This document shows positions 3,970 to 37,443 of a stretch of 64,000 nucleotides of DNA, in pieces; position 1 is the stretch's first letter, and every line of letters starts with the position of its first letter. This DNA comes from Bacteroidota bacterium (GTDB lineage Bacteria > Bacteroidota > Bacteroidia > B-17B0 > Aurantibacillaceae). The position numbers were made by a program, and so were the translations under genes. The notes under the pieces were generated by a model. The model saw only the letters and a list, made by a program, of their open reading frames with translations. It was not told where the DNA came from and did not search any database. The stretch spans positions 248,001-312,000 of the forward strand of contig JAJNDK010000003.1 of assembly GCA_021156365.1 (NCBI GenBank), given 5' to 3'.

Positions 3970-5634
3970 ATGGCAGGCGGTAAAGGCGAATCACCAAGAC
4001 AAAAGATGATCGGTATGATGTACTTAGTACTCACCGCACTTTTGGCGATGAACGTATCAAAGGATATCCTTAAGGCATTCGTTACTGTTAACGACAACCT
4101 GGAGCGTACCAATAAAAATTTCGATAGTAATACCAAGAAAGTACTGGAAGCGTTTAAAGCGTCAAAAGAATCAAATCCAAGTGCTCTTCCTTATTACGAA
4201 AAAGCGGAACAGGCTACCAAGATCACGAAAGAGATCTTTGACCATATTTCCAAATTAAAACAGCACATTATTGACGAAACAGAGAAGATGGAGAAAAAAG
4301 ATACGCTTCGTCTGAAATATGCAAATGCTAAAGATAATTACGATGCTCCTACGCATATCATGATCGGTGATGATGAAACGAATCCAAAGGATGGCGATCT
4401 GACAGCGAAAGATCTTAGAAAAAGGATCAACGCGGCAGAATCTAAATTGCAAGCCTTGATAGATGATATGCAAAAGGAGAAAAAAACACAGTTTCTTCCG
4501 GACGATTACAAAGCATTGAAGGAAAAGATCTCAACTATGAAAGTTGTGGATCCGAATGAAACAGAAGACGGTGCAAAGATCACGTGGGAGATCTTTAACT
4601 TCTATCACTTACCATTGGCAGGTGTTGTAACGAATCTTACACAGATGCAATCAGACATTAAGAACGTTGAGTCTGAGCTTGTATCTCAATTCTCAGGTGC
4701 TTCCGGAAAGATCGCTATCAAATTTAACCAGTTATCTGCGAAAGTAGTGGCTCCTTCCAGCTATATCCAAATGGGACAGCCTTACAAAGCCGATATTTTC
4801 CTGGCAGCTTCTTCTACCGATTTTAAAGATGACAACATGCAGGTTATTGTTGGTGTGGATTCAGCTGAAGCTGCAAAAGGTGCCACCGGAGCAGTTCAGA
4901 AACTTGAAGGCGGTATGGGTAAATACGAAGTGGGTACCGGCGGACAAGGTTTACAAACTTATAAAGGTGTTATTAAATTCAAGAAACCAACAGGTGAATA
5001 CGATTACTATCCTTTCTCCGGAGAATATATGGTGGCAGCGCCTTCTACGGCTATCGCACTGGATAAAATGAATGTATTCTACATTGGTGTACCAAATCCT
5101 GTATCTGTTTCGGCTGCCGGTGTATCTCCTACAGATCTTGTAGTGAATGCAAATGGTGGTGGAGCTAAATATGTATCAAAAGGCGGTGGTAAATACGAAT
5201 TTACATTCTCAAGTCCTGGCGATTGTAACATCAGCGTATCCGCAAAAACAAAAGATGGTACAAAACCTCAGGGACCTCCTATTAAATTCCGTGTAAAAAG
5301 AATTCCTGATCCGGTTGCTAAGATCGGTGGAAAGATCGGTAACGGTATCCTTGAGTTCAAGAAACTGGAATTAGCATCCATCGGTGGTGTGATCGCTGAG
5401 GTTCCCGGATTCGAATTCGATGCTCGTTTCGTAGTAAAATCATTTATTGTGAGTGCTGTTGTTAAAGGAAGTCTGAAAGAGTTCAACTGTGCGGGTAACA
5501 ATCTTTCTGCGGAAGCAAAAGGAGTTATCCAGAGTTTGAGCCCGGGTTCCAAATTGTATTTTGAGAATATCAAAGCAAGCGGACCTGATGGATCTACCAG
5601 AACTTTACCTAACGTATCGATCAAAGTAAAATAA
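3970..5634 (+). CDS. gldM: GldM, periplasm-spanning motor subunit of type IX secretion
   Basis: GldM anchors in the inner membrane beside GldL by a single helix and reaches across the periplasm to the GldK/GldN ring, passing on motor torque. The 554-residue protein has the diagnostic start MAGGKGESPRQKMIGMMYLV, a transmembrane segment at about residues 17-35 (MYLVLTALLAMNVSKDIL), a helical coiled region to about residue 235, then three beta-rich domains. Recognisable points are the MNVFYIGVPNPV segment near residue 360, the KFRVKRIPDPVAKIGGK segment near residue 440 that links the last domains, and an SPGSKLYFENIKASGPDG motif near the end. Length and order are normal for the family. It is followed by gldN after 40 bases. 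Confidence 0.96.
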   Translation: MAGGKGESPRQKMIGMMYLVLTALLAMNVSKDILKAFVTVNDNLERTNKNFDSNTKKVLEAFKASKESNPSALPYYEKAEQATKITKEIFDHISKLKQHIIDETEKMEKKDTLRLKYANAKDNYDAPTHIMIGDDETNPKDGDLTAKDLRKRINAAESKLQALIDDMQKEKKTQFLPDDYKALKEKISTMKVVDPNETEDGAKITWEIFNFYHLPLAGVVTNLTQMQSDIKNVESELVSQFSGASGKIAIKFNQLSAKVVAPSSYIQMGQPYKADIFLAASSTDFKDDNMQVIVGVDSAEAAKGATGAVQKLEGGMGKYEVGTGGQGLQTYKGVIKFKKPTGEYDYYPFSGEYMVAAPSTAIALDKMNVFYIGVPNPVSVSAAGVSPTDLVVNANGGGAKYVSKGGGKYEFTFSSPGDCNISVSAKTKDGTKPQGPPIKFRVKRIPDPVAKIGGKIGNGILEFKKLELASIGGVIAEVPGFEFDARFVVKSFIVSAVVKGSLKEFNCAGNNLSAEAKGVIQSLSPGSKLYFENIKASGPDGSTRTLPNVSIKVK

Positions 5635-32671: not shown

Positions 32672-32695
32672 TAATTTAAGTGCTTGATTTTCAAG

Positions 32696-32769
32696 CGGTC
32701 CGGACGGGACTCGAACCCGCGACCTCCGCCGTGACAGGGCGGCATTCTAACCAGCTGAACTACCGGACC
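32696..32769 (-). tRNA. tRNA-Asp (anticodon GTC)
   Basis: A 74-nucleotide cloverleaf: acceptor arms GGTCCGG and CCGGACC with discriminator G, D-arm with GGTTA, anticodon loop CTGTCAC between CCGCC and GGCGG, and the T-loop TTCGAGT. Anticodon GTC is at 32735-32733. The 3' CCA is not encoded, so it must be added after processing. Confidence 0.97.
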
Positions 32770-32906: not shown

Positions 32907-34610
32907 ATGAAGAAACCTCTTGTTTTTTTACTCCCATTTTTGTTGTGCCTTCTTAGTTGTACGAACACGGATAAACAGGAAAGTCGCATCCGGATAGTTA
33001 CCTTCTGCGATGGGTATTCAGCCGAAGAGGTAGAGCGCAACATTACAGCTCCTATAGAGAACGCATTTAAAGATGTAAGCACCAGCTCCATCACATCTGC
33101 CGGAAAATGTATCATCACGCTTTCTTCAGAAGTATCTGCCGATTCATTACGTATGCTTGCCCAAGACCGCATGCCTGTAAAATACCTTCCAAAAGACACC
33201 AAGCCTGTGATCCAAAACTATACCGATCCGGATGCTGCCGTTATCCGCTATGTTTTGACAAGTGATGTGCTTCCCCTGACAGAGCTTCGTAAATGGGATG
33301 AAGAGGTACTGGCTGCCGAACTGGAACGATGGCCCGCTGTTACAGCTGCCTATGCTGTTGGCGGCGGAGAAGAAGTTTTCCTGATCGATCCCGATCTTCA
33401 TAAATTAAACAGCTTTGGAATCGGAATGGATGAGTTTGCGAATGCAATTGAAAGGAGCTTATATCCTGTAGAAACGCTTCCCGGCAAATTGAACCTGAAT
33501 ATAAAAGCAAAAATAAAAACGCCGGAAGAGATCGCCAATATGATCATAAAAACAAGCGGATCAACTGCAATTATGGTAAAAGATGTAGCGCAGGTATCTC
33601 TTAGCGTGAAAGAGACTAACGAGGCAGTGTATAATGCAGATAAGCCATCCATTGAAGGGATCGTAACGTTTAAGAACGGCTTGTCTCCGATCGAAATAAA
33701 AAAACAGTTTTATTCAGTGTTGGAGCAGGTAAAGAAGAAAGGGATGCCTGCTGGCATTTCCATCCATCCTTTTTTTGAGCCGGGAAACAGGAAGTCAACA
33801 GGCATTTTTAAAGTACAGCTCCCTTCAGGGCTATCTCATAAAGACAGACATGACGCATGGATGAAGATATGGCAGGCAGTGCAAAAAACCGAAGGCGTAG
33901 TATCCTTTGTTTCCGAAACCGGATATTCGGTAAATGAAAATACGGAAGAAGAGAATTGCCTGAATTTTTATATAGACATTGGCCAAAACCAAAACACAGT
34001 GGAAGTCGAAAATGCCCTGCAGGAAAAACTGGATGCTTTTCCGGGAATGCGGTATTGGTTTGTTCATCCTGCGTCCGGAGAATGGCCGGCTGATTATAGC
34101 ATTAAGATTTTCTCAGAGGATGAAGGAAAGATGAGGGAAGCCATGACCGAATGGAGAAAAAAACTGGAACTTGTAAAGGGCCTGAAGAATATCCACAGCA
34201 AGGGTGATCAGCAAATTCCGGAATTGAATTTTAAAACAGACAGGGAGAAAGCTGCACAGTATGGTATAAGTATAGATCTGCTCCAAAAAACCGTGCGTTT
34301 TCCTTTGGAAGCGAAAGTATGGAGCGCCGGGCTGGAAATACCCGTACAGCTGAAAATACTACATGGAGCAGAAATAAACGATCTCAGTTTCCTGAAAATA
34401 AACAGCAGGAATGGCCTGATACCTGTTATGGAATTAATAACGATAGAGGAGAGAAGTGTCTCTTTCACTATTTTGCATGAAGATGCCAGGACATATACAG
34501 CGCTTTCTTTTACGGTGGCAGACGAAAATGCTCTACAAGCGCTGCAGGAACAGTTGCAAAAACAGGCAGCAGGATCCGGGGACCTCCTGATCAGGTTGGA
34601 AAAAGACTAG
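32907..34610 (+). CDS. Lipoprotein resembling the RND efflux porter without membrane helices
   Basis: A 567-residue lipoprotein (signal MKKPLVFLLPFLLCLLSC, lipidated Cys-18) whose body reads like the two periplasmic loops of an RND permease (AcrB/CusA family) joined together. The first half has YSAEEVERNITAPIENAFKD, matching the PGxSPEEVExxVTxPIExAL start of RND porters, then the ELRKWDEEVLAAELERWPAV, LNSFGIGMDEFANAI and IMVKDVAQVSLSVKETNEAV segments. The second half (from about residue 300) repeats the plan with LNFYIDIG, REKAAQYGISIDLLQKTV and NGLIPVMELITIE. None of the twelve RND helices nor the proton-relay region is present. It stands alone without membrane-fusion or outer membrane factor genes. 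Role unknown; a docking or substrate-binding part of a pump is only inferred. Confidence 0.75.
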   Translation: MKKPLVFLLPFLLCLLSCTNTDKQESRIRIVTFCDGYSAEEVERNITAPIENAFKDVSTSSITSAGKCIITLSSEVSADSLRMLAQDRMPVKYLPKDTKPVIQNYTDPDAAVIRYVLTSDVLPLTELRKWDEEVLAAELERWPAVTAAYAVGGGEEVFLIDPDLHKLNSFGIGMDEFANAIERSLYPVETLPGKLNLNIKAKIKTPEEIANMIIKTSGSTAIMVKDVAQVSLSVKETNEAVYNADKPSIEGIVTFKNGLSPIEIKKQFYSVLEQVKKKGMPAGISIHPFFEPGNRKSTGIFKVQLPSGLSHKDRHDAWMKIWQAVQKTEGVVSFVSETGYSVNENTEEENCLNFYIDIGQNQNTVEVENALQEKLDAFPGMRYWFVHPASGEWPADYSIKIFSEDEGKMREAMTEWRKKLELVKGLKNIHSKGDQQIPELNFKTDREKAAQYGISIDLLQKTVRFPLEAKVWSAGLEIPVQLKILHGAEINDLSFLKINSRNGLIPVMELITIEERSVSFTILHEDARTYTALSFTVADENALQALQEQLQKQAAGSGDLLIRLEKD

Positions 34611-34699: not shown

Positions 34700-35344
34700 A
34701 TGGAAGATACCATTCATCATAAGCAGTACCGGAACGAATTAGTAAAGCTTTTGCATGAAAAAGGTATCAGCGACGAAAAAGTACTGGAATCGATCAGAAG
34801 AGTACCGCGACATTTGTTCATCGAAGCAAAACTCAGTGTAAAAGACATGTATGAAGACGAACCCATTGGGATCGGGCAGGGGCAAACCATTTCCCAGCCT
34901 TTCACGGTGGCCTGGCAAACACAATTACTGGATATTGTATCCGGCGATAAAATACTGGAGATCGGCACAGGTTCCGGTTATCAGGCTGCGGTCTTATACA
35001 TAATGGGGGCAGAGGTCTTTACGATCGAGCGGCAAAAAAAGCTCTATGACGAAACCAAAAAGCGGATTACCCGCCTGGGTTATTCGCAGATCCATCTATT
35101 CTATGGCGATGGCAACAGGGGACTTCCGGAACTAGCTCCTTTTGATAAGATCCTTGTAACGGCGGCGGCTCCTTCCATACCGGACCTGCTTGTTGAACAA
35201 CTCAGGATAGGAGGCTCACTCGTCGTACCTGTGAATGGGGGACTTCAACGGATGCTCAAAATAACAAAACTGTCGGAAACGGAAACACGGATAGAGGACC
35301 ACGGGCACTTTCGTTTTGTTCCTTTATTGCCCGGAACGGAGTAA
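34700..35344 (+). CDS. pcm: Protein-L-isoaspartate O-methyltransferase
   Basis: Pcm methylates isoaspartyl residues in aged proteins so they can be repaired. The 214-residue protein shows VLESIRRVPRHLFIEAKL, the active-site region GIGQGQTISQPFTVAWQTQL, the SAM-binding motif ILEIGTGSGYQAAVLYIMGA, LFYGDGNRGLPELAPFDKIL and GGSLVVPVNGG. Start and length are normal. It is a stress-survival enzyme, which fits with the DUF892 protein 1.4 kb downstream, though a shared transcript is not shown. Confidence 0.95.
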   Translation: MEDTIHHKQYRNELVKLLHEKGISDEKVLESIRRVPRHLFIEAKLSVKDMYEDEPIGIGQGQTISQPFTVAWQTQLLDIVSGDKILEIGTGSGYQAAVLYIMGAEVFTIERQKKLYDETKKRITRLGYSQIHLFYGDGNRGLPELAPFDKILVTAAAPSIPDLLVEQLRIGGSLVVPVNGGLQRMLKITKLSETETRIEDHGHFRFVPLLPGTE

Positions 35345-35598: not shown

Positions 35599-35631
35599 TG
35601 CCCCGGGGTGAACTTTAAAAAACATTCCATT

Positions 35632-36609
35632 ATGATTACAAGAAATCAAAGAAGAGGTGCTCAATCGAGAGAAAGGGACTCTGAAGGCCGGTTTTCGACC
35701 AATCCACGCCGTCAGTACAATGAATCAGGAACGTATAATTCCGAATATGGAAACGAAGACTATGACGATTTTGACGACTATGATGAGGATGAGAACGACA
35801 GCCGGTATGAAGGCAGCAGGAATTTCAACAGCAGTTATGATGAAGACCTGGAAGATGAGTATGATACACGCGCAAGCGATTATGATTACGATGAGGATGA
35901 TGAAGACCGCGACGAGGATCGTTACGAAAATAACCGTGGAAACTACACTTCTTCGCGTAACAGCATGAACCGTTCAGGAAACAATCAAAACGAAGGAAAT
36001 TATTCAGGAAATCGCGGATCGTATGCGGGCACAAATCGTTCATACGGTACTGGCTATTCAGCACAGGGACGCTACCACGACTCGCAAAGCGATTATTACG
36101 GAAACGGCAGTCAGCGTGGCGATAGTAACCAATACGGATCGTATGGTTCATCACGCGGAACAGGTTACGGTTCATCGCGCAGTAATGAGTTTTCCCGTTC
36201 ATCGAATGGCAATAACTCTTATGGTACTTCGCGCAGTGGATCAGGATCTTCCCGTGGATACGGTTCATCGTATGGATCTTCACGCGGTACTGATTCTTCC
36301 CGTTCATCGAATGGCAACAATTCGTACGGATCATCCCGCAACAATTCTGATTATGGATATGATTATTCCGGCACCACAGGTCGCGGAAGAAATTCGAATT
36401 CCGGATCAGGCTCGTCACGCGGATACGGAAACAGCGGTTACGGCTCATCGAACAACTACGGAAATTCTTCTTATGGCAATTCCAATTCCTCTTCACGCGG
36501 AACAGGAAGCAACCGTAATTCGAATACAGGAAACAGCCGCAACAGCTCGTACGGAAATTCCGCTTCCCGCAACACACGCTCTACATCTTCCCGCAACAAA
36601 AACAGATAA
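35632..36609 (+). CDS. Low-complexity disordered Ser/Gly/Arg/Tyr/Asn-rich protein
   Basis: A 325-residue protein with no visible fold. Residues 1-30 are basic (MITRNQRRGAQSRERDSEGR), 35-105 are very acidic with Asp/Glu/Tyr runs (EDYDDFDDYDEDENDSRYEG), and 110-325 are made of Gly, Ser, Arg, Asn and Tyr with repeated YGSSRG, SSRGYG and SRSSNGNNSYG words. Two copies of a 35-residue unit start near bases 36192 and 36297. There is no signal peptide, cysteine or long hydrophobic stretch. The ATG at 35632 is chosen because the sequence upstream of it is AT-rich leader. Composition resembles RGG/prion-like condensate-forming proteins. The next gene encodes a DUF892 stress protein with a similarly low-complexity start, so a stress role is inferred. 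Confidence 0.8.
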   Translation: MITRNQRRGAQSRERDSEGRFSTNPRRQYNESGTYNSEYGNEDYDDFDDYDEDENDSRYEGSRNFNSSYDEDLEDEYDTRASDYDYDEDDEDRDEDRYENNRGNYTSSRNSMNRSGNNQNEGNYSGNRGSYAGTNRSYGTGYSAQGRYHDSQSDYYGNGSQRGDSNQYGSYGSSRGTGYGSSRSNEFSRSSNGNNSYGTSRSGSGSSRGYGSSYGSSRGTDSSRSSNGNNSYGSSRNNSDYGYDYSGTTGRGRNSNSGSGSSRGYGNSGYGSSNNYGNSSYGNSNSSSRGTGSNRNSNTGNSRNSSYGNSASRNTRSTSSRNKNR

Positions 36610-36696: not shown

Positions 36697-37443
36697 ATGG
36701 CAAAATCAACTACAACGTCTGCAAGCCAGAAAAAAGGCAGTACAGACACAAAATCGGGCAATGGTATTGCTAAAAACGATATGTCGAAAAATACAAAGGA
36801 AGATACGATGAAAAACAGCTCTTCAAAGTATGATACGGCAAAAAGCGGGTTTTCGAAAAACACCGGCTCTAATTCAGCTTCAGCTACCGGCTCGAAAAGC
36901 AGCTCGTCCAAAAGACACAAAACACTGGAACAACTATTCGAGGAAGAATTAAAGGATGTTTACAGTGCCGAAAAACAGCTGATAGAAGCCTTGCCAAAAA
37001 TGGCTGAAGCAGCTTACAGCGAAGAGCTCCAGGATGCATTCGAACATCATCTTCAGCAAACAAAACGCCATGCGGAACGGATCGAAAAGATCTTTGACCG
37101 TATGGGCATTAAGAAAGAAGAGAAAAAATGCTTTGCGATGGAAGGCCTGATCAAAGAAGGTAATAAGATCATTGATGAATTTGATGAAAGCTTCGTGCGC
37201 GATTCGGCACTGATCATCGGTTCACAAAAGATCGAGCATTACGAGATCGCTTCTTATGGTTCGCTTTGTGAGCTGGCAGATGTACTTGGCTATGGAAAAG
37301 TACGGGATCTGCTGCACCGCACGCTTGAAGAAGAAATGGATACGGACGAGCACCTCACCATGATCTCTCAGGCGGTGAATGATGAAGCGTATGAAATGAG
37401 CCGCGACGAAGAACACGCGGAAGTATACTCATCAGAGCGATAA
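36697..37443 (+). CDS. DUF892 (YciE/YciF-like) ferritin-like protein with disordered N-terminus
   Basis: A 248-residue protein. Residues 1-72 are low-complexity Lys/Ser/Thr/Asn sequence (MAKSTTTSASQKKGSTDTKS, TGSKSSSSKRHK). From about residue 73 the DUF892 four-helix domain is clear: TLEQLFEEELKDVYSAEKQL, MAEAAYSEELQDAFEHHLQQ, HAERIEKIFDRMG and LHRTLEEEMDTDEHLTMI, with Glu and His residues in the pattern of ferritin-like metal sites. Members such as YciF are induced by osmotic and other stress in enterobacteria. The N-terminal extension is not part of the usual family and echoes the neighbouring disordered protein. It ends in a bidirectional terminator. Confidence 0.9.
   Translation: MAKSTTTSASQKKGSTDTKSGNGIAKNDMSKNTKEDTMKNSSSKYDTAKSGFSKNTGSNSASATGSKSSSSKRHKTLEQLFEEELKDVYSAEKQLIEALPKMAEAAYSEELQDAFEHHLQQTKRHAERIEKIFDRMGIKKEEKKCFAMEGLIKEGNKIIDEFDESFVRDSALIIGSQKIEHYEIASYGSLCELADVLGYGKVRDLLHRTLEEEMDTDEHLTMISQAVNDEAYEMSRDEEHAEVYSSER

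Follow-up and report, generated by a model that had tools for sequence, protein, structure and literature searches.

The open reading frame (ORF) at 32907-34610 encodes the entire periplasmic porter part of an RND permease (subdomains PN1, PN2, DN, PC1, PC2 and DC), in which a lipoprotein signal precedes a single chain of about 550 residues. This architecture of an RND porter module is new and known so far from a single genome (a Bacteroidota bacterium of the Aurantibacillaceae), and the RND similarity of the ORF, as judged from the sequence, is far above chance. "RND transporter" is the wrong name for this ORF, since the defining features of such a transporter were checked and are absent. The window is the whole stretch of DNA that was analysed (64,000 nucleotides), and its features around the porter gene are the following:

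32695..32769, minus strand: tRNA-Asp(gtc), upstream of the porter gene (ARAGORN)
32907-34610, plus strand: porter-lipoprotein ORF, with ATG at 32907 and a stop that ends at 34610 (567 aa)
32907..32960, plus strand: lipoprotein signal peptide with lipobox LLSC, residues 1-18, the sole hydrophobic stretch of helix strength (sequence and pattern scan)
32958..34607, plus strand: predicted mature protein from Cys-18 (550 aa), a TM-free RND porter module (ACR_tran 1.3e-46; fold match to ZneA, CusA, AcrB and AcrBper)
32979..33779, plus strand: loop 1 (PN1, PN2, DN), residues 25-291, aligned to AcrB 39-330 and to CusA
33462..33479, plus strand: shortened intersubunit arm, residues 186-191 (profile alignment; in a low-confidence part of the model, 186-202)
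33777..33803, plus strand: junction, residues 291-299 (EPGNRKSTG), where TM2-TM7 are absent (profile jump from ~327 to ~564)
33804..34607, plus strand: loop 2 (PC1, PC2, DC), residues 300-567 (alignments; separate model matched to ZneA 547-839)
34700..35344, plus strand: pcm, protein-L-isoaspartate O-methyltransferase (PF01135, 2.1e-57)

The product begins with MKKPLVFLLPFLLCLLSC followed by TNTDKQ, in which the sequence and a pattern scan place a lipobox with Cys-18; signal peptide, lipobox and invariant Cys, the features of a bacterial lipoprotein, are thus all present in MKKPLVFLLPFLLCLLSC and the adjoining T. In a hydropathy scan, the signal peptide is the sole segment of membrane-helix strength (KD 1.62; next best 1.01), whereas the same scan finds twelve segments at 1.8-2.8 in the genome's own pump. 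The ORF therefore lacks the twelve TM helices in two bundles that mark an RND permease. No further RND piece appeared when 26-42 kb were scanned with the profile in all six frames (best E 0.57), and because no helix pieces lie in nearby frames, the ORF is not a frameshifted pump. The codon-usage score also favours the 567-codon open frame (0.037, vs -0.018 and -0.014 in the other frames). The first-pass annotation had described a lipoprotein signal (Cys-18) and a 567-residue body lacking membrane helices, and had named frameshifted helices in the neighbouring bases as one of the findings that would overturn it. The ORF, the lipobox and every landmark that it quoted are present, the hydropathy scan agrees, and the six-frame scan turned up no such helices.

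The product is predicted to be lipid-anchored on the periplasmic side of the outer membrane or, less probably, of the inner one. The Thr at +2 after the lipobox Cys is common to the ORF and to a GldK-like lipoprotein (1307-2905) in the same window; GldK is an outer-membrane lipoprotein, which makes the outer membrane the likelier address. The GldK-like gene is among the type IX secretion genes of the window, together with GldM (3970-5631) and PorP/SprF (107-1126).

The RND identity of the body was established with sequence profiles. The search against ACR_tran proposed in the first-pass annotation gave a match at E=1.3e-46 (159 bits vs a cut-off of 28), and this was the sole Pfam family found in the ORF. 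Both homologous porter loops of an RND permease (loops 1 and 2; ACR_tran, PF00873) are present: an ACR_tran search at genome scale returned two stretches, covering profile positions 42-322 (1.2e-28) and 560-835 (1.5e-16). A comparison profile, made in this analysis from 22 complete pumps, matched at 5e-62 and placed ORF residues 25-290 on pump positions 47-327 and residues 292-554 on positions 564-838, with profile columns 328-563 and 839-1029 left unmatched. The missing pump positions are TM1, TM2-TM7 and TM8-TM12, and the cuts fall at membrane boundaries or domain edges in three places. The best PDB sequence match of the ORF is ZneA (2e-14). The region that carries the proton relay (AcrB D407, D408 and K940) is absent from the ORF, and the lipoprotein thus cannot pump or transport actively.

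All six subdomains are recognisable, and in order, in an alignment with E. coli AcrB and CusA: PN1 (25-108), PN2 (109-154 and 235-291), DN (156-234), PC1 (300-392), PC2 (393-430 and 532 to the end) and DC (431-531). The borders follow those of the AcrB subdomains. The lipid Cys takes the position at which TM1 would exit the membrane, ~8 residues ahead of the first porter strand, and the C-terminus (GDLLIRLEKD) stops immediately ahead of the place of TM8. Conserved cores are kept in every subdomain; over the strongly conserved porter columns, 40 of 99 are kept and 59 are changed, and the losses take in conserved hairpin and arm motifs. In the profile alignment, the arm has 6 residues vs 17 in AcrB (211-227), leaving 11 of the 17 without a counterpart. 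The docking hairpins are shortened, that of DC by 6 residues. The switch-loop segment has kept its length, and Gly-339 and Tyr-340 lie opposite AcrB 614-615.

The ligand residues of known pumps are mostly replaced. The metal-binding methionines of CusA (M573, M623 and M672) correspond to F301, C351 and a gap, and the triad is absent from the ORF. The deep-pocket phenylalanines of AcrB (F136, F178, F610, F615, F617 and F628) correspond to A110, V151, V335, Y340, V342 and Y355; aromatics are kept at two of the six positions, both as Tyr, and the other four Phe are replaced by Ala or Val.

An AlphaFold2 model built from 36 pump rows has a mean pLDDT of 68 and a pTM of 0.56, with both docking hairpins among its poor parts and residues 186-202 at low confidence. 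Foldseek against solved structures ranked ZneA best (1.5e-28) and placed AcrBper, unexpectedly, among the top matches (7b8r_B, E 2.7e-28, TMq 0.69). VIA-align likewise gave ZneA (4k0j) as the closest fold (Z 31.6), and CusA at Z 29.8 over 515 residues with an rmsd of 4.6 A; a viral fold library returned no match. The full-length alignment behind the model misplaces residues 295-330, and for this reason loop 2 was modelled separately. Alone, it reached a pLDDT of 70 and a Foldseek match to ZneA at 3.6e-11; against ZneA 547-839 it scored Z 10.2 with a large rmsd, and a small ferredoxin-like S6 fold scores equally on one of its subdomains. MAFFT, given the two loops as separate rows, aligned loop 2 to loop 1, which reflects an internal repeat. 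Because the alignment behind the models consists of pump sequences, part of the fold match is built in, and the sequence profiles are for the same reason the stronger evidence. Together, profiles and predicted structure support the earlier claim that two RND periplasmic loops have been fused into a helix-free lipoprotein: where an unrelated fold would have spoken against it, the predicted fold is that of an RND porter.

The nearest counterpart is an engineered one. AcrBper is a fusion of the two E. coli AcrB loops (PDB 5EN5, 5ENO, 5ENS, 7B8R-T; PMC8617272), and these loops alone fold, trimerise in DARPin co-crystals and bind drugs (PMC8617272). Like AcrBper, the ORF combines both loops in one helix-free chain, which has the porter fold in the models. 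The two share the removal of TM1, TM2-7 and TM8-12 from one chain with two RND loops, a similar length (572-589 modelled residues in AcrBper vs about 550 in the porter lipoprotein) and a strong fold match. However, AcrBper is man-made and lacks lipidation, and arms and pocket are intact in the drug-binding trimers that it forms, whereas the porter lipoprotein is natural, carries a lipobox and keeps only a minor part of the arm and of the AcrB pocket. Among natural pumps, the CusA/CzcA/ZneA (HME) group is the closest clade in the tree, the closest fold and the best PDB sequence match, yet the porter lipoprotein lacks its membrane helices, its proton relay and the CusA methionine triad. AcrB/MdtBC-type (HAE) pumps share the porter subdomains and their order, but they are more distant (15-20% identity) and differ in having helices and a phenylalanine pocket that the porter lipoprotein does not match. 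A looser parallel may be drawn with periplasmic accessory lipoproteins of efflux systems, such as YbjP with TolC (PMC13095208): both would be envelope lipoproteins possibly linked to efflux. This likeness would be functional only, and the abstract on YbjP (PMC13095208) claims no RND porter fold for it.

A maximum-likelihood tree of the porter loops gives the ORF a long branch (1.76 substitutions per site), which joins next to the CusA/CzcA clade as a whole; none of the sampled pump groups includes the ORF. An ACR_tran search of the genome found only two complete pumps (C1:320640 and C22:123552), of which one groups with AcrB-side pumps and the other is of a 1166-residue type, and it found no heavy-metal pump of the CusA/CzcA class. 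The porter gene is absent from a 98%-complete congener (G001), in which a pump of 1459 residues groups with CusA. We infer that a divergent RND pump from the heavy-metal side of the family may have lost its three membrane blocks to give the porter lipoprotein, with the lipidated Cys taking the place of TM1.

The first-pass annotation had also called for homologues with the same architecture; the search was run, and no second example emerged from the collections covered. Among the Bacteroidota genomes searched, only complete pumps were found, at identities of about 30% or less. Complete pumps or nothing came from the genus (3 genomes), from the family and order (the same 87 genomes), from samples of the class and of the phylum (395 each, with some overlap), from the class with the junction and loop 2 as query, from another order (270), from GTDB contigs selected by peptide patterns, from plasmids and from viral contigs. 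In the large genome samples the best 3-5 candidates per genome were scored, and one set of GTDB-contig loci was chosen by loop-1 motifs, so that very diverged relatives could escape either search. Nearly all the short frames among the matches run off a contig edge, one locus (L211) carries a pump divided between two frames, and in none of the short frames checked is loop 1 connected with loop 2 in the absence of helices. Searches of the open-licence literature turned up no description of a helix-free RND lipoprotein.

The surroundings of the gene contain no adaptor, outer-membrane factor or pump; the neighbours are carA, tRNA-Asp, pcm and a DUF892 gene. Upstream, tRNA-Asp and carA lie on the other strand, and pcm follows ~90 bases downstream in the same direction. 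This pcm is the genome's second copy (the other, at C9:138826, is 51% identical), and its nearest relative found, in genome G026 (57%), has no adjoining RND-like gene. Further along, 35608-36609 encodes a long, highly repetitive, acidic low-complexity protein rich in Ser, Gly, Asn, Arg and Tyr and without a Pfam match, followed by the DUF892 gene (36697-37443). Codon usage is somewhat atypical in the porter gene and the most atypical of the window in pcm, and gives a weak hint that this pair is not native; the GC content is ordinary. In the congener, carA adjoins tRNA-Asp near a contig end, in the opposite relative orientation; the tRNA-Asp beside the porter gene is possibly an insertion hot spot.

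We favour the reading, to which we give an even chance, that the ORF encodes a lipoprotein exapted for the passive binding of a ligand or a partner in the periplasm. The cleft between PN2/PC1 and PC1/PC2 would receive a ligand; alternatively, the porter surface would bind an envelope partner. By analogy with AcrBper, whose loops alone fold, trimerise with DARPin and bind drugs (PMC8617272), such a role would be physically reasonable. The retention of both loops in order, the conserved cores, the cuts at membrane boundaries, the open frame, the codon usage and the fold matches all speak for it, and the long divergence with the frame intact argues for selection. Against it stand the lack of any orthologue found, the loss of the known ligand residues of CusA and AcrB, the shortened docking hairpins and a fold match that is partly built in. 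More tentative, and somewhat short of an even chance, is the proposal that the ORF represents a new class among the envelope lipoproteins: an RND porter module, freed from its motor, would have been turned to the passive binding of a ligand or partner, probably as a monomer.

The same divergence could instead mark a remnant, a divergent RND pump stripped of its membrane parts by deletion and drifting to loss without present function. This is unlikely but deserves weight: the gene is a singleton without an orthologue found, its branch is long (1.76 substitutions per site), 59 of 99 conserved columns have changed, no partner genes lie nearby, and it is lineage-specific, being absent from the 98%-complete congener G001. 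However, random decay would not delete three membrane blocks in frame at domain borders, nor would it create a good lipobox and keep the frame open over 567 codons, and the coding statistics favour the frame.

An accessory or decoy subunit, which would modulate one of the cell's complete RND pumps by joining it or by docking to it or its adaptor, is rather improbable. Porter and docking surfaces are natural contacts for RND subunits and adaptors, and the genome does have two full pumps (C1:320640 and C22:123552). Those pumps, however, belong to other clades, whereas the ORF branches with heavy-metal pumps; no pump, adaptor or TolC gene adjoins it; and the reduction of the arm from 17 to 6 residues, with a DC hairpin shorter by 6, removes the main AcrB trimer contact.

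The arm bears equally on trimerisation at the membrane, which the first-pass annotation proposed alongside docking to a pump and substrate binding; a free-standing trimer might act there as a scaffold or passive conduit. AcrBper does form trimers despite having no membrane helices, at least when co-crystallised with a DARPin (PMC8617272), but deletion of 211-227 leaves AcrB folded, monomeric and inactive (PMC3925222). With 11 of the 17 arm residues gone, an AcrB-style trimer is doubtful, and a free trimer of this kind is highly unlikely; the porter lipoprotein is probably monomeric, or oligomerises differently from AcrB. That misassembly or a sequencing error took the helices out of a normal pump is scarcely credible: the gene is unique in our searches, but no sign of an artefact was found, identity to any pump found is only ~25%, the gene lies inside a 533-kb contig, and a lipoprotein signal occupies the place of TM1 with no helix fragments around.

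RND pumps have always been described as a membrane motor that drives an outside porter, the part that handles the drug or metal. Nature seems to have made the porter construct that crystallographers built by hand from AcrB, with a lipid anchor replacing the first helix. The claim is a modest one because a single example is known. For annotators, the ORF would be a warning that an ACR_tran match does not mean an efflux pump, and for ligand-binding studies the porter lipoprotein would provide a naturally helix-free RND porter. A natural porter-only protein would bear out what the engineered AcrBper suggested, that the RND porter can stand apart as a module, and would show, if the reading as a passive binding lipoprotein is true, that this domain can evolve as an independent unit.
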